A stretch of 64,000 bases of DNA, from the NCBI RefSeq assembly GCF_018446385.1, contig NC_056000.1, positions 35,563,511-35,627,510 on the forward strand, in the 5' to 3' direction. Positions 33,868 to 64,000 of this stretch are shown one piece after another. A model generated the notes under the pieces. The model saw only the letters and a program-made list of their open reading frames with translations, ran no database searches and was not told the origin of the DNA. Both the position numbers and the translations under genes were made by a program. Within the stretch, counting starts at the first letter, position 1, and every line of letters begins with the position of its first letter. Source of the stretch: Zingiber officinale (lineage: Eukaryota > Streptophyta > Magnoliopsida > Zingiberales > Zingiberaceae).

Positions 33868-33872
33868 ATAAA

Positions 33873-35363
33873 TGATCTTGTCGGGAATCTAAGTCAGAGG
33901 GACCATCGGATGAGGTGGATGGAATATTGATCAAATCGTGACGTCCCGAAAGGGGGTATGCTGAGATGACTTTTATGTTGACGAAGTCGTCAGAAGCCCT
34001 ATGGTCAACGCTATCTGCAGCTAGCGATCGGATCACTCTGATCCCTGATACCCCGATATTCGAGGCAGATCCAACGAATATAAAATAACAAACTAGGACA
34101 TAAAATAATGAAATGCGTATAGAATATGAACGAAGAACGTACTTGGCCCATGGGACGCCCTTGGGTGGATCGGTGAGCTGGCCAAGATCCTGCTCGAGTT
34201 GTCATGACCCGAAATAGTAGATGAACGGGAGCCGGATGTGGAGCTGGGTCTGGTGGCGCAGAGCTAAATGCGACCTGGATCCAGAAGACGACCCACAGGC
34301 CGGAACCTAATAGAAACACGTAGACTAGGATATGACATTGGCACGCAGACCGGGATATAATATCGGCACGCGGGTCGAAATGTGACATCGACACACAGGT
34401 CGGAACATGGCACACAGGTCGGAACAAGATAACAGCACGTAGGCCAGGACACGACACACAAACTAGATCAGCGCATAGGTTGTCACACAATGCACAAGTC
34501 AAATCGGCGCAAAAGTCGAAACACTATCGAAGTGGAACACGATCTGATCGGTGACATATGACAACAGTAAGTACTAGGGGCGGTTGCGCCCGTCAGAAGT
34601 GGCACATGGAGATGACTACTACGGCAGTGCTGTGCCGACGATGGCAGATGGCGGACAGAAGGGCTAGCATGGTAACTGGCCGCGGTAATGGCATGGTGCG
34701 ATCGAGGAAGAAAGGAGGAAAAGGGTGGAGGCTAGCGACGAGAGGCGTGGTCCGACAGCCGACGAAGGTAGCGAGGCGGCTTACTGGGAGCGATGCCAGC
34801 GGTCAGAGACTGCTCGCCGAGGGTTGTGGAGCGGATGACGACGTTGGAAGGCGAAGGTAGTCGGTCGCATGCTTAATCAGTGGTGAAGGCTGGCCATGGC
34901 GATAGAGAAGAGGTGGAGGGGGTGTGCCCCTTTGTCAGCAGTAGTGTCGGCGTCGCCAGCCATCCTTGTGCGTGAGCGTGAGGCGGTGCCAACGCTGAGG
35001 GCGCTAGCATGAGAGGCCACGACGGCCTGTTGAGGTAGCTGTGGCGAGCACAAAGGAAGAAGAAAAGGATGTAGTAGCCGGCGGCATTGCCATGAAGAGG
35101 TGATGCAAGGAGTCCCCTCTGGGGTGGCGAGGCGGGGGGACGACACCGAGTCTGTCCAGTGGCGACATCGTGAGGAGGAGAAGGAGAGGAGTGGAGCGTG
35201 AGAGAGAGAAGTTGGTCAAGTCTCCTGGCGGCGGAAGCAAAAATGAACCTCCACCTTACAACAGTACCTCCTCCCCTCCCTTAAGCCCTAAACAGTGGAA
35301 AGACCGAAATACCCCTCCTCTTTCTCCTAATTCCTCCTCTGCCCTTAAGTCATATCCACATCA
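33873..35363 (-). repeat. 3' LTR of the giant element (left copy)
   Basis: About 1491 bp, TG...CA. It aligns along its length with 57608-59152, for example 'gtatgctgaga' at 33957 and 57690 and 'cacctcct'-type endings before catatccacatca. GC-rich internally; open frames here on both strands track composition rather than a gene. Confidence 0.85.
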
Positions 35364-35429
35364 CAAGTCTCCCCCTCAAGTCTAGTCGAAGGAGGCGCAA
35401 GTCCAATTGACAGACCAAGCCTTAACATA

Positions 35430-35860
35430 TAACGTTAAATGAATAGCGACGAACGATGAGTGCGGTGCAGAGCGAGGAATACAGGGCAGAGCGACGAGTG
35501 ATATGCGAAAGATGAGCGTTGGGCAGAGCGACGAGTGAGATGCGAACAATGAGTGCCGAGCAGAGCGAGGAATGCAGGGCAAAGCGACGAGTGAGACGTG
35601 AATGATGCGCGTAGGGCAGATCGACTAGTGAGACGTGAGCGATGAGCGCCGAGCAGAGCGGCGAATGAGGCGCGAGCAATGAATGAGACGCGAACGATGA
35701 GCGTCGGGCAGAACTACGAGTGAGATGCGAACGATGAGAGCCGGGCAGGGTGGTGAGTGAGAGGCGAATGATGAGCGTCGGGCAGAGCGACAAATGAGGT
35801 GCAAGCGATGAATGAGATGAATGTTGACCAGACGACGAGCGTTAAATAGAGCGGCAAGTC
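35430..35860 (-). repeat. Degenerate 37-bp tandem repeats
   Basis: A module of about 37 bp, agcgacgagtgagacg followed by a 'gaa.gatgagcg' part and closing with 'gggcag', repeats about eleven times with variation. The array sits just inside the 3' LTR of the giant element. Minus-strand open frames of up to 123 codons are by-products of the repeat. Confidence 0.7.
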
Positions 35861-38800
35861 AGACTAGCACCTGATCAAGGAGAGAACCCGGTTGACTAGT
35901 CGTTATGCCTGACCGAGAGGTCCTTAGCCATGAGAGCCTTACTCGCTTATAACAAGCTCTCGGGCGAGAGCCTGGAAAGCCGACCGAGCGGATTTGATCG
36001 ACCGACCAAATGGTACCTAGCAGATGCCAAGCGAACGGAAGAATGTTGAGTGTGCGTATAAAGAGAAAGACTGAGTAGTGCCAAGTGTGCATATTAACGG
36101 AACAAAGCGAAAGTCCAAGAAGCGCCAAGCGGGAGATAGAAGAAATACCGACTGAGCACTCGGGAGAATGCCGAGCTAGAAGAAAGACGATGAGTGATAA
36201 CCATGATTGCTATATTATTTTGAATCATAATGCATATTATTATTGGTCTATTCATAGCTTAATCTCACATTTATATTATATTTCATAATTGCATATGATC
36301 TTGGACTTAATTGCAAATTAGCAAATTATCGTGGTATTTGATGCTAATATTTGATTATTATTTTGTAGGCATCAAAAGGGGCATGGACCCGATCAGATCA
36401 TACCACATTTGCGATCAAATCTAGGGCGAAATGAGGCGATCAAGCTCCAGAACAACTGTAGTCGTTCATTCAAGAGTGGAGCAGATCTACACCATCCATT
36501 GAAGATCTGGCTCATCTAACCTAATGAAGAGTAGATCTGGACCGTAGATGAAGATCCAGAGATTTTGATCCAGATCCAAGACGATTTAGCCGTTGATCAA
36601 GCCCAGAAACAATCTGGACCGCCCGATCAGTTTTGAGGAGGTTTAAAAGCCGCGTGAGAAGCTACAGTTCGCTGGACCTGACGTTTTCACGATTCTTCAT
36701 TGTGCATTCTTCTTCTTATCTGCGTCGCCGAGATTCCCGTTCCACAATTCAGACCCGAGAGCAGACTTTCTTCACCGACGGCGATCCTGAGTTGCCGGCG
36801 TCCATCTTCCAAGATCGGAGAGTGCTAGAGGGAGGTTTCTCGGCACGACTTGGAGACTGTTTCATCACCGCGATCTTGTGAGAGGGAGGTTTCTCGATCA
36901 GCGATCTTCACATCCACCAGAGCTTGAAGGGAGGTTTCTGAGAGTCTCTGATCATCTTTCCGATCTCCATTCCACAACAAAACTTGGACGATGTGGCCAT
37001 TCGATCCGGTTTACGAAGTCATAGATTCATGCTCTATTCTTTGGCCGATGGGTTTACCAGTCAGTTGTGAGCTTGAGGGGAGGTTTCCAAGAGCTGTGAG
37101 CATCCTCTGGTGATGGTTGGGAGCTTAGTTGATTGTTTGTTGGATGTTGGAGGGGAGGTTTCCAAAGTCATCTCTGCTTCACGGCAGATTGTTGAGGTTT
37201 GAAATTGGGTTTGGTTGTGGAATGTTTTAGGGTTTAGTTTTCTTTATCATTGTCTTTTAATTGTTGATGTTCATGATCAGATCTAATGATCTGATTTACT
37301 TTCATTGCCATTTTGTTCTTGTTTAAATCTCTTCTGTAATTCCATTTCTGATTTCTCTCTTGCAATTCAAATTCCTTCAGATTTCTTGCAATCCGAATCT
37401 TATTAGTTACTTAATGTTTTTCTGCAATTCCCTGTTCTGAATTTCTTACTTACTTTCTGATCTTGTTGAACTCTTAAAATCCGAATATGGTTAGCTAGTT
37501 AATTAGTTGCAATCTAGTTTCTATATTGAATAGGGTATTTCAGTTTATGCAATTTTGTGTTAGTTTTACGTTTTAATTCAGGAAACCTTTGTTCTATACG
37601 TTAGACTTTCTGTGATTGTGATTGAGAATTGGATGAAGTTCGGTTTATTCAAGGGTGTTTAAGCTTTGAGTTTATTTGTTATGAAGATGTGATAATTGAT
37701 TGATTAGATTCAATGATACATTAGAAACCGAACTCAATTGATACTTATTTGATGAGGATGGACCTTCTTTGATCTTGATGATGTAAGAGTTTAATTTGAA
37801 TCAATTCTAGAATTCACACACACTCACTAGTTATCCTTAGAAAAATACGACTTGGGACTCCATACTACAATGTTTGTCTTAATTTTAATGAGTTTCAATT
37901 TTAATTAATTTGATGTGTCACGTGACATGTAAAAAGGCCGACACCAATGGGCGAGCGGTGTCGAGCACGCGATCGAGAAAGTGCCGAGCGGGTGGAAAAA
38001 CAATGGGCACATGGTATGGACCGTGCGACCGAGAAAATGTCTACCAAGCGATAATAAACCGCGACTGGGTGACCGAAAAATGTTGACCGGATGATCAGAG
38101 AATGCGACCAAGCGACCCAAAAATGTCGACTGAGCAATAGAGAGAATGTTGAGCGGGTCGAAAGACGATGGGCGAGCAGTGTCAAGCACACGACCGAGAA
38201 AATATCGACCGAGCGATAGTAACCACGATCGGGCGATCAAAAATTGTCGACCATGCAATAGGGAGAATGCCAAGCGGGTCGAGCCAAGAGGTTGATGGCG
38301 AACAGAAGCGGATCTTGTGAGCAGATGGCGAATAGAAGCGGATCTCGTGAGCAGAAGTGGATCCCGCGAGCGAAAGCGGATCCCGTGAGTGGAGCGGGCG
38401 CAAAGCCTATGAAATCGAAGGTGAACGGGAGTTGAGCCCTTGAGCCAAGCAGCGAGTGAGACGTGAGTGTCAAGCAATGCGGCGAGTGAGATGAGTGTCA
38501 GGCAGAGCAGCGATTGAGTGGTGAGTTTCAACCGAGCAACAGCGATGAGCGAAACACGAATGGTGAGTACCGGGCAGAGCGACGAGTGAAGCAAGTGTAA
38601 TGAGTGTCGGGTACAGCAGCAAATGAGCAATGAGTGCCGACTGAGCAACAGTGGTGAGCGAAACACAAATGGTGAGTGTTGGGAATAGCGGCGAGTGAAG
38701 CGAGTGTGATGAGTGTCGGGCAGAGCAGCGAGTGAGCGGTGAGTGTCGACCGAGCAACAACGGTGAGCGAAACACAAATGGTGAGTGTTGGGAATAGTGG

Positions 38801-39225
38801 CGAGTGAAGCGAGTGAGATGAGTGCCGAGCAGAGCAGCGAGTGAGTGGTGAGTGCCGACCGAGCAACAGCGGTGAGTGAAACGCGAATGGTGAGTGCTGG
38901 GCAAAGCGACGAGTGAAGCGAGTGTAATGAGTATCGGACAGAGCGGCGAGTGAGATGAGTGCTTAATAAGGGAGTAAACTCGACTGGCTAGTAGTTGGCT
39001 GCGAGAGGCTGACCGAGAGGTCGTTGGTCGTGAGAGCATTCTCGCTTATAACTCGCACTGGGGTGAGAGTCTGGAGCCCGATCGGGAGGTTGTTGGTCGT
39101 AAGAGCATGATCATTTATAACTCGTACTGGGACGAGAGTCTGGAAAGCCCGACTGAGAGGTCGTTGGTCGCGAGAGTACGCTCGCTTATAACTTACACTG
39201 GGACGAGAGTCTAGAGCCTGACCAA
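35650..39225. repeat. Large segment repeated at 41162-42860
   Basis: Apart from the solo LTR, this segment (35650-36194 plus 37947-39225) parallels 41162-42860 in the same order and orientation, about 90-95% alike by eye, including single-copy stretches such as 'gcatattaacggaacaaagc' (36091 and 41607). It is therefore an internal duplication or the join of two related elements, not just more tandem repeat. It also contains 37-bp modules (about 38500-38970) and about three 69-bp units (about 38985-39225). Confidence 0.75.
36195..37946 (+). mobile_element. Solo LTR, 1752 bp, in the giant element
   Basis: Begins TGATAACCATGATTGC and ends GGCCGACACCA; flanked by atgag (36190-36194) and atggg (37947-37951), a 5-bp target duplication with one difference. 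The parallel segment around 41706 lacks it, reading straight through 'gacgatgggtgagcgg', which shows the empty site. Near its end 'tacgacttgggactccatac' resembles the end of plant Ty3-type LTRs. No internal region remains. Confidence 0.72.
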
Positions 39226-39303
39226 GAGGTCGTTGGTGGCGGTGTCGCGAGGAGGAGAAGGAGAGGGGTGGAGCGTGAGGGAGAGAAGTTAGCCAAGTCT
39301 CCT
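39226..39303 (-). repeat. Internal fragment of the giant element's LTR
   Basis: The sequence 'cgaggaggagaaggagaggg' through 'aagtctcctgg' matches LTR interior at about 35165-35230 and 58933-59017. It directly follows a 69-bp repeat unit and is cut off where the next element starts. It points to a second family member or an unequal exchange inside the nest. Confidence 0.65.
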
Positions 39304-41161
39304 GGATCATGACTATAGGTACTAGGAGCTAGATCATATGCCTGTTGATATTGATATTGAAAATACTAAGATTCTATAGGAAATCTAGCAGTCTTTTGAA
39401 TGAGATGACATATAGCATCTGGATGCGATGAATTGCCACAATTAGTACATATGTACCTCACTTTCCCAGTATTCAAATTATGATATTCATTGAAACTTCC
39501 AAATTACTGAGAATAAAGATCCATGTTGAACTGAAAGAATTGTCCTAGTCTTACACAGAAACATTAACAGACAAGATTAGAAGACACAGGAATATATGAT
39601 ATCAAACACATGAATCTATAAATATTAAAGCATTTGAATTTTTTTTTTTAGAAATTTTTGTAGAAAAATAAGAAAGCAATCCAAAATTATCAAACACCAC
39701 TACAATTCCCCTGGCAACGGCGTCAAAATTTGAGGTGAGCTCGAGTGTCGTACTACGGGAGCTTATCAAATTATAATTAAAGTTACCGAACTCATCTATA
39801 CTAAAGTAGTATAGAGCTGACTCAGGTCGTCTCCCAACGAATGTAACGATAGGATGATAACTTTAGGATTGATTATTGCTTTGAATTTTAACGTGAAAAT
39901 GGAGGGGTTGGGTTTGAGTTCTAAACTACGAAATGAAATAACAAAATAAGTATGAAATTAAATCTAAGGAACAAAAGAGCAAAGCAAGTATGAAATCTAA
40001 TCCTAATTAATGAAAGATAATACAAGTAAGAAAACCTACTCTAACTTAAACTATGATTGCAAGAAAATTAAAGACATAAAGTAAGCATTGAATGAAATCT
40101 AGAGTATTAAAGAAATCTAATATAACCTAATTACATCCAAATAAAGAATAGAACTTAGAGCAATTGAAAGAGACAAGATATACAAGAATTAAGCAAAATA
40201 AAGTGCACGATTTTAAACCTAACTATTGGAAGAAGCATTTTGTCGAACACCTTACGAACATTAATCAAAATTACATGAGTACATGCAAATCTAAAACAAG
40301 GGAGAACAACTTAGTGCAAGCATTCATCAACCAACTAAAAGAAACATCAACAATCAACTCGAATCAAGTGAAAAACTACAACAAACAAAAGCTGTCCAAA
40401 ATCTGATGAAGGGAGAAGTGCTGCTTGGACTCGAAGGCTGTTGTGGCTGGCCAAATCTGGAGAAGATCTACTGCTGGGAGGCAGATGAGGTGGATCCCGA
40501 CCGGTGACGGTGAATGACGTGAGATCGGGATCAAGAAGGGATGTCGACGTAGATTGAGATGGAGAGGAGAGGTAGTGGTTGGCCGGCGGTCGTGAGGTGA
40601 AGGTGAACCGCCGGCTGTGAGGTTGAGGGCGTGAAGTTGGCTTGCGTCTGTGCGTGGAGAAGTAGCTTCTCTTCTCCTCCGTGTCCGCGTGCGAAGAAGA
40701 AAGGAATAGGGGTCCAAAATTAGGGATTTTTCCTCAACCCTTGGATGCTCTTCAATTCGAATCAATGGACCAGATTTGAGGATGAGATAAAGCTTGAGTG
40801 GATCCGGATTTTGATTTGGTGGAAGAAGATCCAAATCCATCAGAAGATGTGGATCCATTAGAGTGTGAAATTGGGCTTAAGATTGATTTGAGCTTCTCTC
40901 TTCTTGGATCCAAAGTGGACTCTTTTTTTTTTTTTTTTTATGATGCTGATGTCTATGGACGGTTCAGATCTTCCAAATTACTTCCCTACAAATAAAATGC
41001 ACATTTTTAGATAAAATACCAGAAAATATAGGAAGAATTATCTTAAGACTCTAAATAAATATCAACCCATAAAATGTGATATAAAATAAAATTTAAGTAT
41101 ATGAGATGATAAAAATATTAAGTATAAGAGCTAAAATAATATATAAAAATGCTCATTATCA
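39304..41161 (-). mobile_element. Partial Ty3-like element: 5' LTR, primer site and gag knuckle
   Basis: On the minus strand the LTR runs 41161-39731, starting TGATAATGAGCATTTTTA and ending CACCTCA. Beyond it comes TTTTGACGCCGTTGCCAGGG (39729-39710), close to the GGCGCCGTTGCCGGGGA primer site of Athila-type elements. A CCHC zinc knuckle, CTNCGNSSHPDAIC, with exact C-x2-C-x4-H-x4-C spacing, lies only ~260 bp further in (39449-39408). The rest, including the other LTR, is absent at the left end. A gag-only short element or a broken longer one are both possible. It is a broken fossil. Confidence 0.65.
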
Positions 41162-42629
41162 CCGGGCAGAGCGGCAAATGAGGCACGAGCAATGAATGAG
41201 ACGCGAATGATGAGCGTCGGGCAGAGCTATGAGTGAGATGCGAACGATGAGCGCTAGGCAGGGTGGCGAGTGAGAGGCGAATGATGAGCGTGCGTGGGCA
41301 GAGCGACAAATGAGGTGCAAGCGATGAATGAGATGAATGTCGACCAGACGATGAGCGTCAAATAGAGCGGCAAGTGAGACCAGCACCTGATCAAGGAGAG
41401 AACCCGGTCGACTAGTCGTTATGCCTGACCGAGAGGTTGTTGGCCATGAGAGCCTTACTCGCTTATAACAAGCTCTCGGGCAAGAGCCTGGAAAGCCGAT
41501 TGAGTGGATTTGATCTACCGATCAAATGGTACCTAGCGGATGCCAAGCGAACGGAAGAATGTTGAGTGTGCGTATAAAGAGAAAGACCGAGTAGTGCCAA
41601 GTGTGCATATTAACGGAACAAAGCGAAAGTCCAAGAAGCACCAAGCGGGAGATAGAAGAAATACTGACCGAGCACTCAGGAGAATGCCGAGCTGGAGGAA
41701 AGACGATGGGTGAGCGGTGTCGAGCACGCGATCGAGAAAGTGCCGAGCAGGTGGAAAAACAATGGGCATATGGTATGGACCGCGCGACCGAGAAAATATC
41801 GGCCAAGCGATAATAAACCGCGACTGGTTGACCGAAAAATGTTGTTTGGGTGATTAGAGAATGCGACCAAGCGATCCAAAAATGTCAACTGAGCAATAGA
41901 GAGAATGTCGAGCAGGTCGAAAGACTATGGGCGAGCAGTGTTAAGCACACGACCGAGAAAATGTCGACCGAGCGATAGTAACCACGATCGGGCGATCGAA
42001 AATTGTCGACCATGCAATAGGGAGAATGCCAAGCGAGTCGAGCCAAGAGGTTGATGGCGAACAGAAGCGGATCCCGTGAGCAGAAGTGGATCTCGTGAGC
42101 GAAAGCGGATCCCGTATGTAGAGCGGATCCCGTGAGTGGAGCGGACGCAAAGCCTATGAAATCAAAGGTGAATGGGAGTTGAGCCCTTGAGCCAAGTAGC
42201 GAGTGAGACGCGAGTGTCAAGCAATGCGACGAGTGAGATGAGTGTCGGGCAGAGCAGCGATTGAGCGGTGAGTTTTGACCGAGCAACAACGATGAGCAAC
42301 ACGCGAATGGTGAGTACCGGGCAGAGCGGCGAGTGAAGCGAGTGTGATGAGTGCCGGGCAGAGCAGCGAATGAGTAGTGAGTGCCGGCTGAGCAACAGTG
42401 GTGAGCGAAACACAAATGGTGAGTGCTGGGAAGAGCGGCGAGTGAAGCGAGTGTGATGAGTGCTGGGCAGAGCAACGAGTGAGCAGTGAGTGTCGACCGA
42501 GTAACAGCGGTGAGTGAAACGCGAATGGTGAGTGCTGGGCAAAGCGGCGAGTGAAGCGAGTGTGATGAGTACTGGACAGAGCGGCGAGTGAGATGAGTGA
42601 CTGACTAGGGAGTAAACTCGACTGGCTAG
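41162..42629. repeat. Second copy of the duplicated interior segment of the giant element
   Basis: Begins with 37-bp modules (41162-41340), then the non-tandem stretch shared with 35866-36194, then the modules shared with 37947-38970. It is uninterrupted by the solo LTR found in the other copy. Open frames up to about 200 codons on the minus strand overlap in several frames, as expected for repeats, and match no protein family. Confidence 0.7.
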
Positions 42630-43734
42630 TAGTTGGCTGCGAGAGCCCGACCGAGAGGTCATTGGTCGCGAGAGCATTCTCGCTTATAACTCGCACTGGG
42701 GTGAGAGTCTGGAGCCCGATCGGGAGGTTGTTGATCGTAAGAGCATGATCATTTATAACTCGCACTGGGACGAAATTCTGGAAAGCCCGACCGAGAGGTC
42801 GTTGGTCGCGAGAGCACGCTCGCTTATAACTCACACTAGGACGAGAGTCTGGAGCCTGACTGAGAGGTCGTTGGTCGCGAGAGCATGCTCACTTATAACT
42901 CGCACTGGGGTGAGAGTCTGGAAAGTCCGACCGAGAGGTCGTTGGTCGCGAGAGCACACTTGCTTATAACTCGCACTGGGGCGAGAGTCTGGAGCCTGAC
43001 CGGGAGGTTGTTGGTCACGAGAGCATGCTCGCTTATAACTCGCACTGGAGCGAGAGTCTGGAAAGCCCGACCGAGAGGTTGTTGGTCGCAGAACACACTC
43101 GCTTATAATTCGCGCTAAGGTGAGAGTCTGGAGCCTGATCGGGAAGTCGTTGGTCGCGAGAGCACGCTCGCTTATAACTTGCGCCGGGACAAGAGTCTAG
43201 AGCTCGACCGGGAGGTCGTTGGTTGTGAGAGCATGATCGCTTATAACTCACGTTGGGACGAGAGTCTGGAGCCCGACCGGGAGATCATTGGTCGCAAGAG
43301 CATGCTCGCTTATAACTTGCGCTGGGGCGAGAGTCTGGAGCCCGACCGGGAGGTCGTTGATCACAAGAGCATGCTCGCTTATAACTCACGCTGGGATAAG
43401 ATTCTAGAGCCTGACCGGGAGATCGTTGGTCGCAAGAGCATGCTCGCTTATAACTCACACTAGGATGAGAGTCTAGAGCTTGCCCGGGAGGTCATTGATC
43501 GTGAGAGCATGCTTGCTTATAACTCACACAAGGGCGAGAGTCTGGAAAGCCCGACCAACAGGTCGTTGGTCGCGAGAGCATGCTCGCTTATAACTCACAC
43601 TAGGGTGAGAGTCTGGAAAGCCCGACCAGTAGGTCATTGGTTGCAAGAGCATGCTCACTTATAACTCACGCTGGGACGAGAGTCTGGAGCCCGATCGGGA
43701 GGTCGTTGGTCATGAGAGCATGCTCGCTTATAAG
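42630..43734 (+). repeat. ~69-bp tandem array, first block (about 16 units)
   Basis: Unit: gagagcatgctcgcttataa, then 'ctcgcactggggcgagagtc', then 'tggagcccgaccgggaggtc', then 'gttggtcgc'. Units differ mainly at C/T and G/A positions, as expected for aged methylated DNA. Most units hold the 10-bp palindrome GAGCATGCTC and a CTCGC...GCGAG inverted pair. The array is interrupted by a solo LTR at 43735 and resumes at 44618. Confidence 0.85.
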
Positions 43735-44617
43735 TGTTGGTCCCTTTGGAGGCCGACAAGAGGGGAGGGGTGAATTGCCCTACAAAAATTAAACCAAAAA
43801 ACCCTTCTCGAATATTCAACTAATTCAAAAGACACTTGTAATAATAAAACTAAGAAACTAAAAGAAAAGAGCAGACACAAGAGATTTACATTGTTTGCAA
43901 TCAAGGGATTGCTAATCCAAGGAAAGTAAGCACACTATTTGTTTATCTCCTTCGGGCGGAGTAGTCTCTTTACAGCGTTGACAGCACAAATAAAAGAAAC
44001 AGAATTGAAAGCACAGAGAAAACTGATTACAAGTGAGTTGATCTGACTGTGCAGATCAGTGCTATATTTATAGCACTGGTCGGGGCGCCCCGAATGGGTT
44101 CCGGGCGCCCTGGGGGGCTAAAATTTTATCCCCCAATGATCAGATCGTGTTTGACGCGATCCTGGTCAAAATCTAGGTCCGAGCGCCCCAGAGGGCTCCG
44201 GGTGCCCCGGAGCCCAAAGTCAACAATGTTGACTTTTTCGTCTCCGGTTCAGCTCATCTCGGTCCAGGTCTTGTTCACTCCGGCTCCGCTAGCTTGGGTG
44301 ATCTCGGCCATCCGGAATAGGGCTCACCCGAACCCAAGTTCCGGCCTTTTCCTCGAGCAGCCTTCCTTCCCGATTTCTCGTCCCTCGAACGTCGCACACG
44401 TTTTTCTTGTCCACCGGTGTACTCTTCAGCGGTCACCTCGTCCCTCGGACGCACCGAGCCCGTCGGCTCTCTCCCCGTGCCGTCCTTCTCGCTAGCCGCG
44501 TCTTCCGCTCGACTTCCTGTGTTCCTAAGCTCCTGCACACTTAGACACAAGGATTAAACAAACGCATGACCTAACTCAGCTTGTTTGATCACATCAAAAT
44601 ACCTTGGGGTTCCAACA
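43735..44617 (+). mobile_element. Solo LTR, 883 bp, interrupting the 69-bp array
   Basis: Begins TGTTGGTCCC and ends GGTTCCAACA, so the ends form the short inverted repeat TGTTGG/CCAACA. Flanks are ataag (43730-43734) and atatg (44618-44622), a 5-bp target duplication with one difference. The opening 'ggggaggggtgaattgccc' is common in plant copia-type LTRs. No internal region is present. Its open frames are not genes. Confidence 0.75.
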
Positions 44618-45575
44618 ATATGTTGCGCTGGGGCGAGAGTCGAGAGCCCAACCGGGAGGTCGTTGGTCACGAGAGCATGTTCGCTTATAACTCGCGCTGG
44701 GGCGAGAGTTTGGAATCCCGACCAAGAGGTCGTTGGTTGTGAGAGCATGCTCACTTATAACTCACGCTGGGGTGAGAGTCTGGACTCCCGACCAAGAGGT
44801 TGTTGGTCGTGAGAGCATGATCACTTATAACTCACGCTGGGGCAAGAGTCTGGAATCCCGACCGGGAGGTCGTTGGTCGTGAGAATATGCTCTCTTATAA
44901 CTCGCGCTGAGGCGAGAGTCTGGAATCCCGACCGAGAGGTCGTTGATCGTGAGAGCATGTTCACTTATAACTCACGCTGGGACGAGAGTCTGGAGCCCGA
45001 CCAGGAAGTCGTTGGTCGCGAGAGCATACTCGCTTATAACTTGCGTTGGGGAGAGAGTTTGGAGCCCGACTGGGAAGTTGTTGGTCGCGAGAGCATGCCC
45101 GCTTATAACTTACGCTGGGGTAAGAGTTTGAAATCCTGACTGAGAGGTCGTTGGTCGTGAGAGCATGCTCACTTATAACTCGCGCTGAGGCGAGAGTCTG
45201 GACTCCCGACTGAGAGGTTGTTGGTCGTGAGAGCATGCTCACTTATAACTCACGCTGGGGCAAGAGTCTGGAATCCCGACCGGGAGGTCGTTGGTCATGA
45301 GAGTATGCTCTCTTATAACTCGTGCTGAGGCGAGAGTCTGGAATCCCAACCTAGAGGTCGTTGGTCGTGAGAGCATGCTCACTTATAACTCACGCTGGGG
45401 GGAGAGTCTGGAGCCCGACCGGGAAGTCGTTGGTCGCGAGAGCATGCTCGCTTATAACTTGGTTTGGGGAGAGGGTTTGGAGCCCGACTGGGAAATTGTT
45501 GATTGCGAGAGTATGCTTGCTTATAACTTGCGCTGGGGCGAGAGTCTAGAGCCCAACCGAGAGGTCATTGGTGAT
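44618..45575 (+). repeat. ~69-bp tandem array, second block (about 14 units)
   Basis: The same unit continues after the solo LTR, with variants such as 'tggaatcccgaccgagaggt' alternating with 'tggagcccgaccgggaagtc' in longer-period groups, for example the similar stretches near 44840-45070 and 45250-45480. This suggests higher-order amplification of several units together. Confidence 0.83.
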
Positions 45576-46324: not shown

Positions 46325-46329
46325 CTGTG

Positions 46330-48546: not shown

Positions 48547-48556
48547 CTGTGCCCCT

Positions 48557-50427
48557 TGTTGGGTTCTTCGAGCCGCGAAAACCGCTTTTTCGCGTCCCGG
48601 AAACCCCGAAGGACCCAAAGTCGTAGATCCGTGCAAAGATTCGTATAAAAATTCGAAAAACTATTTCTTGTACGAGTTCAAAAACTGATATACTACTTAG
48701 ATCTATGAGGAAAAAGTGTTTACCCTTGATGCGATGCCCTTCGCGTTCCCGCTCGTCCAAATGATGCCGGATCTCAAGACCGTCAAGCGCCGGTCCTCTA
48801 GAAGTATCCACACGGACACACTAGATGGAGATGACCAAAAACCAAGGTGTGCTAGCACCTATGTGGTTCGGCCAAGGGAGGAGAGGGAGAGGGAGAGCTT
48901 GAGAGGGAGAAGGAGGAAGATGCACACAAGTGAATGAAAAATGAATTTTTTCATCCAAAAACCAAGTGGCCGGCCACATTTCAAAATTCACATTAATTGC
49001 ATTAATTGCAATTAATATGAAACCATAAAATCACATTAATTGCATTAATTACAATTAATATGAAACCATTAAGAGAGTGACTTTGTTACTTTCATGAGGT
49101 GGCACCCATGATGATGTGGAACATCATTATTGGTCCACCTAATGCCAACTCACCAATGAGGTGGCAAAAAGGTCAAGTCAAAATTGACCTTTGGTCTTCC
49201 TTCTCAAGTCAAGTCAAACTTGACTCCATCTCTACCATGGTGGATCTAATCCAACCATTTGATTCGAGCCAACTTAATATAATGAATCTAATTCATTAAA
49301 TTAAATTGATTCAATGAGTCAAAATCTAAATTAGACTCATTTAACACATGAATCAACTTGAGTCGAACTCAAGTTAGCCCAATTAGGATTACTCTTAATC
49401 CAATTTGATTCATCAAATGAATCTAATCCTCATGGTTCATCATATGAACCTAATCTCCACCTAATTGTCCTAAGTGTGTGACCCTATAGGTTCTTGTAAC
49501 GTTGGCAATGCCCTAAACCCATTTAGGAGCATAAGTAATGAGCGGTATCTAGCAACACATCATTACTACCCAAGTTACAAGAATGTCGAGATCCGACATC
49601 ACCTTGTGACTACTCACAAAATAATGACAAGTGTCCTTCTATCCTAGACGTCTAGATTGATCAATATGAGGCATAGACCGTGTCATCCTCTAATCAATCT
49701 AAATCTTGAACTCCAAGTAGACTCACTCGATCAAATGAGCTCAACATCTAATGTTGACTCATTTGGGCATGGCCATGCACTTAGTGGTCTCACTCTATCA
49801 AGAATACCGATGTCGCTCCCGTCATATGGGAGGGATAGATCCCATCTACATCACTCACATCCCTCTACATAATTCGTTATATACCCAGTAATCGCCTTTA
49901 TAGTCCACCCAGTTACGGGTGACGTTTGACGAAACCAAAGTACATAACTCCTTATGTAGGGATCCATGGTGACTTCAGGTCTAAGGACTAATTGTCATAC
50001 TAATAGTCACATGAGAAAGTATATGACACTCATATAACGATCCATGATACTTTCTCATGGCGGGTCATTCAATATACATTCTCTAATGCATACCCATGTG
50101 TCACTGATATCTCTATATCCATGACTTGTGAGATCAAGTCATCGAGATGACCTACATGTTAGTCTTATTGTATTAACATTGTCCCCGAATGTTAATACTG
50201 ACTAGGAATGATTTAGAGTAGTGTTCCTATATCATCTCACTATCGATTCAACTAATCGATTGATATAGGTATGAACCTTCTACTCAAGGACGCTATTATA
50301 CTTAGTCTATTTGGCACTAATATAAATAAGTATAATAACCAAACAAATGCCTTTATTGATATACAAGAATATGATATACATGAGTCCATACAATCATCAA
50401 ATGATTGGCTCTAGGCTCTAACTAACA
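48557..50427 (-). repeat. 3' LTR of the copia element (left copy)
   Basis: Plus-strand ends TGTTGGG...CTAACTAACA. It contains a short tandem repeat of 'cacattaattgcattaatt' (48990-49070), also present in the other LTR. The two LTRs agree almost base for base beyond the first ~230 bases. Confidence 0.92.
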
Positions 50428-50606
50428 CCACTCAGTCACTAGTGCCAATCAAGATAGGCTCTAAGGCCTAAAGACCTAGTGTGACCATCGTGCTTCCTCT
50501 GTGCCAAAGCCTTGGTCAAGGGATCTGCGATGTTAGCCTCTGTGGGTGCAACAATGTACTCGGCCTCTGTCGTAGAATCAGCTACTGTGTCCTGCTTCGA
50601 ACTCTT

Positions 50607-51299
50607 CTAGCTCACAGCACCACCATTAATGCAAAATACGAACCCTGACTGCGATCGATAATCATCCTGGTCAGTCTGGAAGCTAGCATCACTGTAACCC
50701 TTTACAGCTAGCTCATCATTGCCTCCATATATCAAGAAATATTCTTTAGTCCTTCTTAAGTACTTAAGAATATTCTTAACCGCTATCCAGTGACTTTCAC
50801 CTGGATCTGACTGGTATCTGCTCGTCATGCTCAAAGCATACGAGACATCAGGTCGAGTACATAGCATGGCGTACATGATCGATCCTATGGCTGAGGCATA
50901 AGGGATCTGATCCATGCGGTCTCTCTCCTCTCTAGAAGAGGGACCTTGAGTCTTCGAAAGACTCATGCCATGTGACATCGGCAGAAATCCCTTCTTGGAG
51001 TTCTGCATGGCAAACCGAAGGAGTACCTTGTCAATGTATGTACTCTGACTTAGGCCAAGCAATCTCTTAGATCTATCTCTATAGATCTGTATCCCAAGAA
51101 TGTGGGATGCCTCACCTAAGTCCTTCATTGAGAAGCAACTCCTTAGCCAGGTCTTGACAGACTGAAGCATAAGGATGTCCTTCCCAATGAGTAGTATGTC
51201 ATCCACATATAATATGACGAAGACAACTATGTTTTCTACAACCTTCTTGTAGACACAAGGCTCATCTTCATTCTTGATGAAACCAAACTGTTTGATCAC
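50607..51299 (-). other. Copia reverse transcriptase / RNase H region
   Basis: Shows the copia reverse-transcriptase active-site box LYVDDILLIG, followed by FSMKDLGEASHILGIQI, GLSQSTYIDKVL, PYASAIGSIMYAMLCTRPD and GYSDASFQTD (start of RNase H). This order is diagnostic of Ty1/copia. Confidence 0.9.
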
Positions 51300-51699
51300 A
51301 TCATCGATCGAAGATTCAGCCCGAGAATGGCCTCAGCCATTTCTAATCGTCTCATCACGCCTCGATAGGTGGTGGGCTCATCCTCATGAGCACAATGTCA
51401 TCATGGTCGACAAGAGAAATGAGTATCTCTCAGCCTGACGACGTCTATCGACCCGCAAAGAGGTATGTCTACTTGAATCGGTTGTTGTTCCTCAACACCT
51501 TGTGGAACAACATCATCCACAACACTTTGTGGTTCCAGCTCAATTTCCATCGAGGCATCATGCTATTGTTCGTATCTTGAACTTCTTCAAGATCGAACGC
51601 TGCCCCACTAGTCTTTCTAGAAACAAAGTCTCTTTCTAGAAAGACCCCAGCCTTGCCACAACTACCTTGTGCCGATCGGGAATGTAGAAGTAATATCCC

Positions 51700-52681
51700 T
51701 TAGTTTCCTTGGGATATCCAATGAAAGCACTTGTCGGATTTGGGTCCTAATTTGTCCGAGACTTGACGCCCAACGTAAGCCTCACAACCCCAAATCCTCA
51801 TGAAAGACACCGGCATCTCTCCAGTCCATATCCTATATGGTGTCTTTATCACGGCCTTTGATGGAACTCGGTTGAGTATGAAAGCTGCCGTGTCAGAGCA
51901 TATCCCCATAGATATGTCGGAAGATCCGTGTGACTCATCATAGATTGTACCATATCTAATAAGGTACGATTCCTCCTTTCGGATACACCATTCCACCGTG
52001 GTGTTCCAGAGGAGTGAGTTGAGATAAAATCCCACACTCACTAAGTAGTCACGAAACTCATGGCTTAAGTATTTACCACCTCGATCCGATCAAGTACCTT
52101 AATACTCTTGCCAAGTCGGTTCTCAGATTTCATTCTTGAATTCTTTGAACTTTCAAAGGATCAGACTTATGTGTCATCAAGTACACATAACCATATCTAC
52201 CGAAATCATCAGGAATGTGATGAAGTACCTATAACCGCCTCTAGCAAGAACATTGAAAGGGCCACATACATCACTATGTATGAGTCCCAACAAATCAGCT
52301 CTCTCGCCATGCCCACTAAAGGGCGCCTTGGTCATCTTGCCTCGTAGGCATGACTCGATATCTCATATGATTCAAAATCAAATGAGTCCAAAGAAACCAT
52401 CCTTATGGAGTCGATAAGCGCTTGTCATTTATATGACCTAAGCGACAAGCGAGGTAGGTTTGGTTCATGTCATTTGACTTGAACCTCTTGGTACTAATGT
52501 TATAGATAGGGCTCTCAAGGTCTAGAATATAGAGTCCGCTTATTAGTGGTGCACTACAATAGAACATATCTTTTAAATAAACGTAACAACATTTGTCTTT
52601 TATTATAAAGAGTATCCTTTCTTGTCTAAACAAGAAACCGAAACTATGTTTTAGTAAGAGCAGGCACATAACAACAATCAT
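51700..52681 (-). other. Copia integrase region with gag-pre-integrase part
   Basis: Around 52037-51849 is the core region end (TPRWNGVSERRNRTLLDMV) and the TYLWGYAL segment; 52681-52403 shows the gag-pre-integrase zinc region (LACRLGHINDKRL). Both are typical parts of a TNT1-94-like polyprotein. The region is a broken fossil. Confidence 0.8.
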
Positions 52682-52914
52682 CTAAATTTAGTACAAGCCC
52701 AGAGGGCGAGATAGAGATAAGTTCCTACAGCAATAGCAGAACCTGTGCCATTGCCTACTCGTAGGCCCACCTCGCCTTTGCCAATGCTCTGCTATTTCTC
52801 ACTGCCATCAAGACAAATGTGAGAAGCACATCCAAGATCTAATACCCATGATGTAGAAATAGATAGATTGACTTATAACATATACACTGAAGTGGAAGTC
52901 TCACTCGCTTCTTC

Positions 52915-53411
52915 TTAAGATCTTCCAAGTATACCTTGCGTTCCTCTTCCAGTGCACTCTAACAGTAGCATCCTTGGCGACCCTCCTTTATGCTTGTTTT
53001 GCCTTTGCCCTTGGCTTGGGACTTTCCTTTGCCTTTGGGCTTGCCTTGCCCTTATGCTCGACCATCGGAATGGGCTTAACCTTCTTAAGGTTAATCTCAG
53101 CATCGTAACATACTAAGTAGCTCGGGCAGTGGCTTGTCAATCTCGCTCATGTTATAGTTGAGAACGAATTGACTATAGCTATCCGGCAAGGAGTCAGTGG
53201 CCAGCTCTTGGCCAAGTGGGAACCCCAGTCTTTGTAGGTTCTCTATGTACCCAATCATCTTGAGTACATAAGGACCTACAGAAGCCCCGTCGACATCTTG
53301 CATGAAACAGTGCCTTCGAGATCTCAAATCTCTCATGCTCGCTTGTCCCTGATATAGTTGGCGAAGATGCTCAACCATATCAAAAGCGCCCATCAACTCA
53401 TGTTGCTTCAA
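52915..53411 (-). other. Copia gag region
   Basis: 53411-53097 encodes a gag core segment of the copia type (ELMGAFDMVEHLRQLYQGQA ... LPDSYSQFVLNYNMSEIDK). A basic lysine/glutamine-rich stretch (RQRKVPSQGQRQNKHKGG) downstream fits the region before the nucleocapsid knuckle. Broken fossil. Confidence 0.75.
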
Positions 53412-55305
53412 GCTCCGAGTTCATGGTCGCGAGCATTAGACAGACACATCTAATGCGTCGCCTTGATGCTTCTTGTAAGCATCTTTGTCGGCTCAGGGCA
53501 TTGGCGGGAGGAGCCTAATGAGCTGCTCCGAACGACAGCTTACGCTCCCGGTGAGAACTATTCTCAAGTTCCCGTACCAGTCTTTGCTCCGCTGAGCTTG
53601 TCCTTCTCAAGGACGCATCGCAGGGAATTCGTGTTCGACGTCATGGTTATCTACAAAAAAATTTGCGAAATAAATATCATATTCTTTAAAAATCATTTAA
53701 TTAGGCCTTTAATTAAATGATGCTCCCACTGAATTCTATAATTCTTGTGGGACAAGATCCACATCATACTAACCCTTGAGTTAGCTTTGGCTAATACGCC
53801 CAAGGCTTAGTATGATCGGTAGGTAACGATTACCAATTACATCTCTATGCAACTCTTGTTTATAGAATCAATATCCGCATTTATATTAAAACTCGAGTTA
53901 GCTTTGGCTAATACGCTCGAGAGTTAATATAGATGTGATTTTGACCTATCTTTCCAACTATTGGAAGAATGCCTATAGTTGACTCGATCCAACCGAGTAA
54001 CTAGGAATACTCAATCTAATTGAGTTTGTATTCACCCATGCGTTGATAGGCGGGACCAAGATTGTCCCTCCGTACCCTACCAAGATAATATGTATTGCTC
54101 TGCTTTGGCAGATTCAACAATACATGTGATCGAGGTAGTGATAGGTATCACGGCACGGTTAGGCATTTTAGAGTTGGTTCGATCGAGATCTAATCTAATC
54201 GAGAAGAATGCATCTTGTGCACGACTTAGATCTAATCTAATCGCAAGGGTGCATCATGTGCACGACTTAGATCTAATCTAATCGTTAAGACACTAATTAA
54301 TTAATTAATTATTAAACATGCATCAAATACATAATAATTAATTAATTAATCTATTTGTGATTTAGTCATGGCCCTACTACGATCTTCTCAAGCCAATGAG
54401 AAGATCGATTGGTCAACCTAGGGTCAACAGCTTCTCCAAGCGCCTCCCTTTGACCACCTTGTGTTGCTCGTGCCTGCCTCGGAACTCCGTCTCGTGTGGA
54501 CCCTCCACCGCTCCAATTTGTATATTACAATTTGAAACTCGAGTTACATTCGAGTCTAAATCTAATTTACAACAAGAATAAAAGACGAGGCACGACGCGC
54601 AGGTCGCGAATAATAAAATAAATACAACACGCGAAAACACATCACGACACGCAGGTCGTATTATGAATTACAACACAACCAATCATATTGGGCTTTGGGC
54701 CATGACTATTACAAATTAATATATATAATTCAAAATTATATATTTTCATAATTTTCTATAATTTTAAAATTAATTTTTACAATTTTACAAGTAAAATTTC
54801 CCGGCGGTCCCGTTTAGCGGTTTCGGGTGCAATCGCGGAACGGATCCCCTCCCTGCCCGCGATCTAATCATCGCGAGGGTTCCTTTGCGATCCAACAGCG
54901 CCTAAACCCGCTGTCCCAAAACGATTTGGGCCGAGACATTACCGTTTCGGAAAAATCTTCCCGACGGGTTCGTTTTTAGCGATTTCGGGTGCGATCGCGG
55001 AGCAAATCCCCTTGCGGGGTTAGGGGCAGCGCCCCTACCCACGATCTAACCATCGTGAGTTGCTCCGTTGCGATCTAAAGGCACCCGAGTCCGCTGTCCC
55101 AAAAGATTTTGGGTCGAAACGAAGCCGTTTGGGAAAATTCTTCCCGATAGCCGAAGCCTACAAGTGCCGAGACACTTGTGCTTCGCCTATAAGGAAAAAT
55201 TACCCATAAAAACATAAAATTGAATTTTACAGAAAATCACAGAAGCTTTTGTTTTCCAAAAACCAAAACTAACTCGTACAAGTCTTTGCACGTGGCTCGA
55301 TACCA

Positions 55306-57175
55306 TGTTGGGTTCTTCGAGCCGCGAAAATCGCGTCGCGGAAACCCCAAGGACCCAAAGCCGTAGATCCGCAAAGATTCGTATAAAAATTAAAAACTAT
55401 TTCTTGTACGAGTTCAAAACTGATATACTACTTAGATCTATGAGGAAAAGTGTTTACCCTTGATGCGATGCCCTTCGCTTCCGCTCGTCCAAATGATGCC
55501 GGATCTCAAGACCGCTGCGCCGGTCCTCTAGAAGTATCCACACGGACACACTAGATGGAGATGACCAAAAACCAAGGTGTGCTAGCACCTATGTGGTTCG
55601 GCCAAGGGAGGAGAGGGAGAGGGAGAGCTTGAGAGGGAGAAGGAGGAAGATGCACACAAGTGAATGAAAAATGAATTTTTTCACCCAAAAACCAAGTGGC
55701 CGGCCACATTTCAAAATTCACATTAATTGCATTAATTGCAATTAATATGAAATCATAAAATCACATTAATTGCATTAATTACAATTAATATGAAACCATT
55801 AAGAGAGTGACTTTGTTACTTTCATGAGGTGGCACCCATGATGATGTGGAACATCATTATTGGTCCACCTAATGTCAACTCACCAATGAGGTGGCAAAAA
55901 GGTCAAGTCAAAATTGACCTTTGGTCTTCCTTCTCAAGTCAAGTCAAACTTGACTCCATCTCTACCATGGTGGATCTAATCCAACCATTTGATTCGAGCC
56001 AACTTAATATAATGAATCTAATTCATTAAATTAAATTGATTCAATGAGTCAAAATCTAAATTAGACTCATTTAACACATGAATCAACTTGAGTCGAACTC
56101 AAGTTAGCCCAATTAGGATTACTCTTAATCCAATTTGATTCATCAAATGAATCTAATCCTCTTGGTTCATCATATGAACCTAATCTCCACCTAATTGTCC
56201 TAAGTGTGTGACCCTATAGGTTCTTGTAACGTTGGCAATGCCCTAAACCCATTTAGGAGCATAAGTAATGAGCGGTATCTAGCAACACATCATTACTATC
56301 CAAGTTACAAGAATGTCGAGATCCGACATCACCTTGTGACTACCAATTGTGACTACTCACAAAATAATGACAAGTGTCCTTCTATCCTAGACGTCTAGAT
56401 TGATCAATATGAGGCATAGACCGTGTCATCCTCTAATCAATCTAAATCTTGAACTCCAAGTAGACTCACTCGATCAAATGAGCTCAACATCTAATGTTGA
56501 CTCATTTGGGCATGGCCATGCACTTAGTGGTCTCACTCTATCAAGAATACCGATATCGCTCCCGTCATATGGGAGGGATAGATCCCATCTACATCACTCA
56601 CATCCCTCTACATAATTCGTTATATACCCAGTAATCGCCTTTATAGTCCACCCAGTTACGGGTGACGTTTGACGAAACCAAAGTACATAACTCCTTATGT
56701 AGGGATCCATGATGACTTCAGGTCTAAGGACTAATTGTCATACTAATAGTCACATGAGAAAGTATATGACACTCATATAACGATCCATGATACTTTCTCA
56801 TGACGGGTCATTCAGTATACATTCTCTAATGTATACCCATGTGTCAGCTTGATATCTCTATATCCATGACTTGTGAGATCAAGTCATCGAGCTGACCTAC
56901 ATGCTAGTCTTATTGTATTAACATTGTCCCTGAATGTTAATACTCGACTAGGAATGATTTAGAGTAGTGTTCCCTATATCATCTCACTATCGATTCAACT
57001 AATCAATTGATATAGGTATGAACCTTCTACTCAAGGACGCTATTATACTTAGTCTATTTGGCACTAATATAAATAAGTATAATAACCAAACAAATACCTT
57101 TATTGATATACAAGAATATGATATACATGAGTCCATACAATCATCAAATGATTGGCTCTAGGGCTCTAACTAACA
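55306..57175 (-). repeat. 5' LTR of the copia element (right copy)
   Basis: Same ends as the left LTR; followed by the cccct target duplication at 57176-57180. On the minus strand it directly precedes the primer-binding site at 55305-55291. Confidence 0.92.
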
Positions 57176-57180
57176 CCCCT

Positions 57181-57607
57181 AATGTCTGATCGCGGAGCTG
57201 GGCCCCTAGTGTCCGATCAAAGATCGAAGGCCCTCGTCTTTGACCAAAGAACTAGGATCTTACTCTCTTATCAAGGAGCTATAGCAGATCCTATAACTGT
57301 AAAAAGGGAGCAGAGCCCGTAATGTACCTGATCGAGGAGTCGTGCCAACCGGCTGAGGGTTTGTCTTGGTCCCTTGACTCCCGAATACTCGTAGAGTCAA
57401 GGAAAAAATATAATGGAAAAACTAACCTGTCGGCCAGCTGAAGCTTTAACTCAATCCCTCGACTCCCGAATATCCGTGGAGTGAGGGTAGAGGATAATAT
57501 GTTTGTCAGGATCCTCCGAGAATGTGATAATGGTAGAGAACCTCTCGATGTCATCTATCTTCACGTTCCAGAACAGATGGAGAAGATTCCTATAGACGAC
57601 GTCAAAT
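57181..57607. repeat. Resumed interior of the giant element up to its primer site
   Basis: 'atgtctgatcgcggagctgg' continues the 'gtgtttgatcggggagctg' repeats left at 46325, confirming that 46325-57180 is inserted material. The stretch ends at the primer-site-like motif 57587-57607 beside the 5' LTR. Confidence 0.7.
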
Positions 57608-59152
57608 TGATCCTGTCCAGAATCTGAGTCAGAGGGATCACCAGGTGAGGTGGATGGAATGTTGACTGAATTGCGACGTCCCGGAGGGGGGGTATGCTGA
57701 GATGGCTTTTATGCTGATCAAATCGTCAGAAGTCCTATGGTCAACGCTACTTGCAGCCAGCGACCAAGTCGCCCCGGTCCCTGGTACCCCGATATTCGAG
57801 ACAGATCGAACGAATATATAAGTAACAGACTAATACATAAAATAATGAAATATGTATAGAATATGAACGAAGAATGTACCCTGGCCCAGGGGGCGCCCTC
57901 GGGTGGATCGGTGAGTTGGTCGAGATGTTGCTCGAGTTGTCGTTACCTGAAATAGTAGATGAACGGGAGTCGGATGTGGAGCTGAGTTTGGTGGCGCAGT
58001 GTTGAATGTGACATGGATCCCGAAGACGACCCACAGGACGGGACCTAGCAGAAACACGTAGACTAGGATATGATATTGGCACGCGGGCTGGGATATAAAA
58101 TCGGCACGTAGGCCGAGATGTGACATCAACACACAGGCCGGAACATGGCACACAGGTCGGAATAAGATACAGCGCGAGGCCAGGACACGACACACAAACT
58201 AGATCAGCGCATAGGTTGCCACACAGTGCACAAACCAAATCGGCGCGAAGGTCGGAACACAATCGAAGCAGAACACTATCTGATCGGTGACCTACGACAA
58301 CAGTAAGTACTAGGGGCGACTGCGCCTGCCGGAGGTGGCACGTGGAGACGACTAATGTGGCAGTGCTATGCCGGCGATGGCAAATGCCGGACGGAAGGGT
58401 TGGCGTGGTAACTGGCTGTGGTAGTGGCATGGTGTGTTCGAGGAAGAAAAGGAGGAAAAGGGTGGAGGCTAGCGACGAGAGGCGTGGTCCAACAGCCGGC
58501 GAAGGCAGCAAGGCGGCTTGCTGGGAGCGATGCTGGTGGTTGGAGACTGCTCGTCGGTGGCTGTGGAGCAGATGATGATGCTGGAAGGCGAAGGTGTGGT
58601 CGACCGCTTGTTTAACTTGCGGTGAAGGCTGGCTGTGGCGATGGAGAAGAGGTGGAGGGGGTGTGCCCCTTTGTCTGTTGCAGTGTCAACGTCGCCAGCC
58701 ATCCTTGTGCGTGAGCGTGAGGCAGTGCCAATGCTGAGGCCGTTGGCATGAGAGGTCGCGGTGGCCTATTGAGGTAGCTGTGGAACACAGAGGAAGAAGA
58801 AAAGGATATAGTGGCCGGCGGCATCGCCATGAAGAGGCGATGCAAGGAGTCCCCTGCGGGGTCACCGACAAGGAGGCGCCGGATTAAGAGGCGAGGGGAA
58901 GAGGACGACGCCAAGTTTGTACAGTGGCGGCGTCGCAAGGAGGAGAAGGAAAGGAGTGGCGGCCGGCACCGGCGAGGAGCGGAGTGTGAGAGAGAGAAGT
59001 TGGCCAAGTCTCCTGGCGGCGGAAGCAAAAAACAAACCTCCACCTTACAACAATACCTCCTCCCCTCCCTTAAACCCTAAATAATAGAGAGATCGAAATA
59101 CCTCTCCTCTTTCTCCTAATTCCTTCTTTATCCTTGAGCCATATCCACATCA
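57608..59152 (-). repeat. 5' LTR of the giant element (right copy)
   Basis: About 1545 bp, TGATCCTGTC...CCACATCA; homologous along its length to 33873-35363 with noticeable divergence and a few small length differences. Followed by the target duplication ataaa (59153-59157). Open frames of up to 254 codons on the minus strand here match no family and follow the GC-rich composition. Confidence 0.85.
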
Positions 59153-59157
59153 ATAAA

Positions 59158-63958: not shown

Positions 63959-64000
63959 CTAAACATCAGAATATCGACTTTTTAGAGTATTTAAAGATGA

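Follow-up and report, generated by a model that had tools for sequence, protein, structure and literature searches.

A repeat-filled LTR element without a polymerase in ginger, probably of a non-autonomous family mobilised by Retand-type elements

How does a long terminal repeat (LTR) element that consists largely of tandem repeats and carries no polymerase of its own come to be inserted in a plant genome? The question is raised by positions 33868-59157 of a 64,000-nucleotide stretch of the ginger (Zingiber officinale) genome (C15:35563511-35627510, hereafter the window), in which an original prediction from the bare sequence had seen a giant LTR element of 25 kb without polymerase. We find one old insertion at this place, and consider it likely that it belongs to a family of LTR retrotransposons that are non-autonomous and are moved by Retand-type elements acting in trans, the step in trans being suggested by the ends that the two have in common. 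In their interior, members of the family retain a primer-binding site (PBS), a leader in which a short stub stands at the start of gag, tandem arrays of several kinds in similar order and a polypurine tract (PPT).

One insertion in two haplotypes

The window element combines TG..CA ends, paired LTRs and a 5-bp target site duplication (TSD). The exact ATAAA flanks that had been predicted are found at 33868-33872 and 59153-59157, and the same 5-mer flanks the allele of the insertion. The left LTR (33873-35363, 1491 bp) and the right LTR (57608-59152, 1545 bp) both start with TGATC and end with CATCA on the plus strand. They are 83.1% identical by blastn, with a Kimura two-parameter distance (K2P) of 0.160, for which the right LTR was taken as 57630-59152 and so lacked 22 bp. 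The purine tract and the primer-like site of the original prediction were both located on the minus strand. The tract, TTGAGGGGGAGACTTG, occupies 35364-35379 and adjoins the left LTR; with a conserved upstream block, CGCCTCCTTCGACTAGAC, it extends over 35364-35397. The PBS relic, TGACGTCGTCTATAGGAA, lies at 57587-57604, with a 3-bp ATT spacer between it and the right LTR. Both signals are present but decayed in the window copy, and since both are on the minus strand, the element reads from right to left. A plus-strand reading is thereby ruled out; the left LTR on the map is the 3' LTR and the right one the 5' LTR. The upstream block also precedes the 3' LTR in other copies and in related elements on contigs C11 and C9.

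Contig C16 behaves as the homologue of C15, since the sequences on either side of the window element, apart from their own locus, both match C16 best, collinearly and with 7.8 kb between them. The flanks are 98.4% (about 5.3 kb) and 98.6% (about 4.8 kb) identical between the two contigs, gaps not counted; the search matches themselves reached 95% on the left, over the 1368 bp closest to the element, and 98% on the right, over 2443 bp. Between these flanks, C16:30155310-30163156 holds the allelic insertion with ATAAA at both ends. Its element (30155315-30163151) is 7837 bp long; the interior takes up 4850 bp of this and carries none of the nested insertions of the window copy. Among the two-base sites of the four LTRs, 62 unite each LTR with the one on the same side in the other haplotype, the two alternative pairings are favoured by 9 and 6, and 241 are singletons, a pattern that dates the insertion before the split of the haplotypes. 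The window LTRs are one minus-strand insertion, common to both haplotypes, as the site patterns and the C16 allele confirm. The LTR family is a common one, with 3407 first-look candidates for an LTR piece, and local clusters do occur (three LTR matches within 20 kb on C4), so that two LTRs of different insertions might by chance have come to lie 22 kb apart. We regard such a coincidence as exceedingly improbable: the TSD is exact, the site patterns speak against separate insertions, and the C16 allele, in which a single element with the identical TSD holds both LTRs, separated by 4.85 kb, refutes them. We also looked for the two faults that could undo the original prediction, LTRs from separate elements and a failing match of the flanking 5-mer; neither was found, and each LTR pairs with its C16 counterpart.

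The window copy has grown since. Later nested material with target duplications accounts for 15,346 bp of its 22,244-bp interior; the remainder of about 6.9 kb agrees with the interior of about 7 kb that had been expected after such subtraction. The later material, all of it missing from the C16 allele, consists of three solo LTRs, an 8.6-kb Copia and one patch; the full copy now measures 25 kb. The solo LTRs lie at 36195-37946 (1752 bp, TSD ATGAG/ATGGG, 4/5 bases), 43735-44617 (883 bp, TGTTGG..CCAACA, TSD ATAAG/ATATG, 4/5 bases) and 46330-48546 (2217 bp, TSD CTGTG on both sides). The Copia is complete and on the minus strand (48557-57175, 8619 bp, TSD CCCCT on both sides, LTRs 96.9% identical, RVT_2). 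The third solo LTR and the Copia went in at sites separated by five bases, and both have an exact target duplication of their own. The word giant thus fits the current length, which is due to later insertions and one duplication, but not the clean copy of 7.8 kb, and the absence of a polymerase holds for the host element, whereas the nested Copia carries RVT_2.

The duplication concerns a minus-strand block of the interior, whose first copy, with a solo LTR within it, spans 35649-39241 and repeats 41162-42950. The two block copies differ from each other by a K2P of 0.068-0.079 and from the C16 allele by 0.093-0.100. As they are closer to each other than to the allele, the duplication of 35649-42950 appears to postdate the haplotype split, although a misassembly of the block is possible. 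The patch between the block copies (39241-41161, 1.9 kb) begins with 65 bp that resemble the LTR of the family itself (61 bp, 91.8%); its remainder, judged by eye, resembles an LTR element that has been truncated, and includes a primer-like site at 39712-39727 (TGGCAACGGCGTCAAA).

A family of ends and repeats

Further copies with the same LTRs and a repeat interior, for which the original prediction had proposed a search, were found. The best 40 of 3407 first-look candidates were scored for the LTR piece and the best 40 of 2711 for the PBS-side region; these numbers, like the 3340 candidate array places below, are not copy numbers. Five of the eight non-allelic regions, on C8, C20, C4 at 15.5 Mb, C17 and C4 at 120.5 Mb, have an LTR pair and a PBS beside one LTR, and the remaining three (C6, C21 and C5) a single LTR match only. 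The C8, C20 and first C4 regions had been selected for two LTR hits close together. The LTR pairs of the five copies are 82.7-86.6% identical, and each copy has the PPT block ahead of its second LTR, in weak form in C8. Interior segments matched between copies show 68-81% identity. Large retrotransposon derivatives (LARDs) are large LTR elements present in many copies that share a non-coding interior of kilobase scale, and with its 7.8-kb allele the family answers this description.

Tandem arrays make up most of the interior, as had been predicted: 3215 of the 4850 bp (66%) in the C16 allele, against 0 bp in 19 of 20 base-shuffled versions of that interior and 43 bp in the remaining one. In the window copy, where all arrays are on the minus strand, a 37/93-bp array adjoins the PPT (35450-35811) and a 109-bp array occurs in each block copy (38482-38954 and 42230-42599). 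They are followed by a 69-bp array of about 15.7 units (42643-43733), which continues beyond a solo LTR as a 69/70-bp array of about 13.6 units (44625-45572), and by a 47-bp array (45959-46166). Arrays were compared with Tandem Repeats Finder among the C16 allele, the C17 copy and both C4 copies, and the three copies share repeat types with the allele. The 69/70-bp arrays, or a 49-bp version of them, are present in all four, and a 27-bp array in all except C17. The C16 allele shares the 47-bp array with one C4 copy and a 37/109-111-bp array with the other. C17 and both C4 copies have arrays of 78-82 bp, which were not called in the C16 allele; a 24-bp array is confined to C17 and one C4 copy. 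Where present, the arrays follow the same order from PBS to PPT among the copies compared.

The arrays might be captured satellite-like sequence that was not born in the element, a proposal that concerns their origin only and is compatible with the mobilisation of the family in trans. It would agree with the occurrence of 69-bp arrays on 19 of the contigs C1-C22, and with array units that have no homology to those of the autonomous relative. We think it rather unlikely, given the similar order of the arrays between PBS and PPT in the copies compared, and given that the longest merged array among the best 40 of 3340 candidate places is about 2.7 kb, as against 1.9 kb inside the C16 allele. Seeding of satellites by the arrays was not seen among these places.

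Coding content is confined to traces. The leader of the window copy (57181-57586, minus strand) includes the site at which better preserved copies begin a short gag-like stub. Six family copies have a short peptide at the position of the autonomous gag start, with a stop codon common to five of the six; in this comparison the row of the window copy matched a wrong place. No Pfam domain was found in five open reading frames (ORFs) of the family element. The Pfam scans covered six window stretches of the 23 listed ORFs; the Copia supplied two of these, and other nested material another two. An arbitrarily cut stretch of the C17 copy, which is not an ORF, gave only DUF1218, with an E value of 0.006 and below the cut-off of that domain. 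When the gag-pol of the C11 element was used in four pieces as tblastn queries, six of the seven element-bearing regions gave no match. The single match, 55 amino acids of integrase at 36% in C8, we read by eye as an inserted element of the chromodomain type. The same queries, among which the gag piece begins after the gag start and does not cover the stub, served as a positive control on the C9 stretch, where they recovered gag at 92-95%. The family element gave no match to a coding region of reverse transcriptase (RT), RNase H (RH), aRH and integrase (INT), as expected of a Retand element, and an antisense Transposase_28 ORF between pol and the 3' LTR, which the C11 relative has, was not found in the few element ORFs scanned. 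Ogre elements are very long and have gag-pol and an extra ORF; with no gag-pol match in it, the element is not an Ogre in this sense.

Could the copies be decayed remnants of ordinary autonomous Tat/Retand elements, each having lost gag-pol independently after its insertion? The age of the copies, as judged from their LTR pairs, would allow for this, and the genome does contain gag-pol elements whose ends are the same. Independent losses would, however, leave differing remnants, whereas the C16 allele, C17 and the two C4 insertions are alike in lacking gag-pol, yield no tblastn match, and have related arrays and a similar order from PBS to PPT. Independent decay is accordingly disfavoured, and we hold it to be improbable.

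An autonomous relative and a young intermediate

An autonomous relative with the same LTR ends, which the original prediction had proposed to look for, was sought through the aRH domain (PF13456). The best 150 of 19001 candidates were scored in the profile search, and the surroundings of 12 were examined. At eight of the 12 places, an LTR end, ATT and TGGCGCCGTCTGTGGGAA (in one case with a substitution) stand in gag-pol orientation. The matches to LTR end plus PBS at these eight loci extend over 32-74 bp with 76-91% identity and E values of 3e-5 to 1e-9. No PBS was found in L041, L043 and L044, within 3001 bases each and with up to 3 substitutions allowed, and in L040 it lies on the opposite strand.

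The closest autonomous relative found is an element on C11, which encodes Retrotrans_gag, RVT_1, RNase H, RVT_3 and integrase in this order, followed by 42- and 58-bp arrays after pol, and has LTRs 97.1% identical. An antisense ORF of this element encodes Transposase_28 (PF04195, E = 2.8e-9). Within L036:1804-5126, the arrays after pol occur together with several antisense ORFs, one of them that with Transposase_28. The aRH domain lies between RH and INT in Ogre and Retand, and Transposase_28 occurs in part of Retand, in the sections of PMC6317226 drawn on here; antisense ORFs of the Transposase_28 type and tandem arrays are described for Retand in those of PMC11963269. On the basis of the domain order, the antisense Transposase_28 ORF and the tandem arrays, we provisionally call the C11 element Retand-type. 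Its LTR end (TTCGGACAGGATCA-ATT-PBS) matches that of the family, as does its PPT block (CTCCTTCGACTAGACTTGA followed by a purine run; 53 bp, 85%, E = 8e-8). The family thus has the LTR end, the PBS and the PPT block in common with a Retand-type element, a combination that we adopt here as our own, unpublished, definition of the relationship. The resemblance to Tat/Ogre elements that the original prediction pointed to therefore stands as far as Tat is concerned and appears to narrow to Retand-type ends; the seeding of satellites that went with it was not observed in the array places scored.

At C9:125516927-125525927 (L047+L040), a 4.1-kb element lies within the gag of another copy, with a TSD of GTGGC. 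Since the PBS in L040 is on the strand opposite the aRH match, we read it as part of a separate, pol-less element. Between the same ends it carries a stop-containing gag stub, arrays of 53-57 bp followed by a 58-bp array, and the PPT block; RT and INT gave no match in it. Its LTRs, 99.7% identical over 674 bp and 94% over an additional piece of 52 bp, indicate a recent insertion. The 58-bp array is 88% identical to the C11 array over 869 bp, the PPT block matches that of the family (54 bp, 85%, E = 3e-8), and the leader resembles the family leader over 107 bp (70%) and over 70 bp (77%). It therefore seems that a Retand-type family has given rise to a derivative, filled with repeats and lacking pol, that was mobile recently, and by its sequence the C9 element appears to link the autonomous elements of the C11 type with the present family.

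The family probably arose through loss of gag-pol from a Retand-type element, of which the two ends and a stretch rich in repeats remained; the arrays would then have changed in length by template switching or unequal recombination. RNA of the family element would be made from its own LTR, and, to judge by the shared ends, would be packaged, reverse-transcribed and integrated by a Retand-type Gag-Pol that recognises them. The window copy was enlarged from about 7.8 to 25 kb by the later insertions and the one local duplication.

Several observations weigh against mobilisation and descent of this kind. The array units of the family show no detectable homology to those of C9 and C11 in 12 comparisons, in which 46 to 100 of 100 shuffles reached the score, and this leaves descent from Retand arrays unsupported. 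The order of repeats is common to the copies only in part. The five other LTR-paired copies are all old, so that present mobility is unsupported for the family itself. The order RH-aRH-INT fits Ogre as well, and the Retand label rests on the antisense Transposase_28 ORF. Among the 12 aRH places, three are without a PBS in the stretch read and one has it on the other strand. The C11 LTRs, of about 760 bp, match those of the family, of about 1500 bp, at their ends only; the C11 element is therefore probably not the direct partner, and we rejected it as such.

Divergence, dating and known systems

The two alleles of the element differ far more than the DNA around them. Allelic K2P is 0.118 and 0.123 for the LTRs and 0.103-0.128 for four interior pieces, against 0.016 and 0.014 for the flanks of 5.3 and 4.8 kb, an approximately eightfold difference (about 0.12 vs 0.015) that bears on dating by LTRs. 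The excess of transitions over transversions is 4.3-5.9 fold between the alleles of the element and 1.1-1.5 fold between those of the flanks. Transitions per C or G site amount to 18-19% in CG, 21-23% in CHG and 13-14% in CHH contexts of the LTRs, and to 4.5-4.9%, 2.1-2.2% and 1.7-2.2%, respectively, in the flanks. Transversions are also raised, being about 2.6 times commoner in the LTRs than in the flanks, so that deamination is not the whole story. The right flank shows an excess of differences to about 500 bp from the element (11, 15, 5, 4, 3, 1, 2 and 3 per 250-column bin), whereas the left flank has no clear trend (5, 4, 11, 4, 4, 2, 6 and 5).

The mean divergence between LTRs is 0.171 and that between alleles 0.1205, which places the insertion at about 1.4 times the age of the haplotype split on the clock of the element itself. 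At the standard rate of 1.3e-8 per site and year, the insertion would be about 6 million years old, and several-fold younger if scaled to the flanks. Ordinary LTR dating may thus overstate the age of the element; a single locus fits a generally fast clock and a local cause alike. We can only tentatively propose, and somewhat doubt, that the clock is general, in which case the LTR ages of GC-rich, probably methylated ginger families would come out several-fold too old, and that the arrays are kept for a role in the RNA, such as packaging or template switching. If true, a family whose mobile part consists of little more than LTR ends, PBS, PPT and ordered arrays would suggest that the arrays act in the RNA.

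Elsewhere in the window, 1-1218 and 8693-9910 are direct repeats, 99.1% identical and probably the LTRs of a young element separate from the one described here. Adjacent direct duplications occur at 16265-17261/17295-18278 (76% identical) and 14958-15171/15174-15385 (88%). An ORF at about 62986-63960 on the minus strand, read in the C16 allele and positioned in the window by offset, resembles by eye an aldehyde oxidase exon.

In the sections of the ginger genome paper at hand, intact elements are those with complete Gag-Pol, and LTRs without Gag-Pol nearby are called solo LTRs (PMC8342452); families of the present kind are probably miscounted under such criteria. No name for this family in ginger appears in the titles and abstract openings of the top-ranked literature, a coverage that leaves aside most subscription journals. 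The prediction of an undescribed non-autonomous family is borne out as to a non-autonomous family, while the kind itself has precedents.

One of these is the Retand lineage, to which the shared ends point. About half of the Retand elements surveyed in PMC11963269, as excerpted, have tandem arrays between pol and the 3' LTR; the family differs in that no gag, pol or antisense ORF was found in it, and in its LTRs of about 1.5 kb, against 315-1194 bp in the same survey. With LARDs it has in common the large size, the kilobase-scale non-coding interior and the many copies, but two thirds of the ginger interior consists of tandem arrays. Dasheng of rice is a LARD with RIRE2 as its counterpart (PMC1940013, in part), and RIRE2 is placed under Retand in the relevant portion of PMC6317226. 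The likeness lies in the pairing of a coding-free LTR element with an element of the Retand lineage. LTR identity within the Dasheng/RIRE2 pairs is high according to the same portion of PMC1940013, whereas the LTRs of the family and of C11 match at the ends only. Gmr9/GmOgre of soybean likewise combines several interleaved minisatellite families in one Tat-type element, but its canonical copy exceeds 21 kb, has gag-pol and carries the array downstream of the coding region (PMC3305785, in part). Non-autonomous Ogre elements of Lathyrus sativus with FabTR-54/57 arrays resemble the family in having arrays in Tat elements and in the loss of pol by large deletions. They differ in that GAG is present near the arrays and several arrays have grown into satellites (PMC7004042, in part); the ginger family has at most a stub of gag, and no long array was met in the ginger places scored. 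The kind is already known, from LARDs with partners and from pol-deleted Ogres with arrays, and the family is an additional case of it, in which an uninterrupted allele and a young pol-less intermediate in one genome illustrate how an element of Retand type can lose its genes yet survive as ends and repeats.

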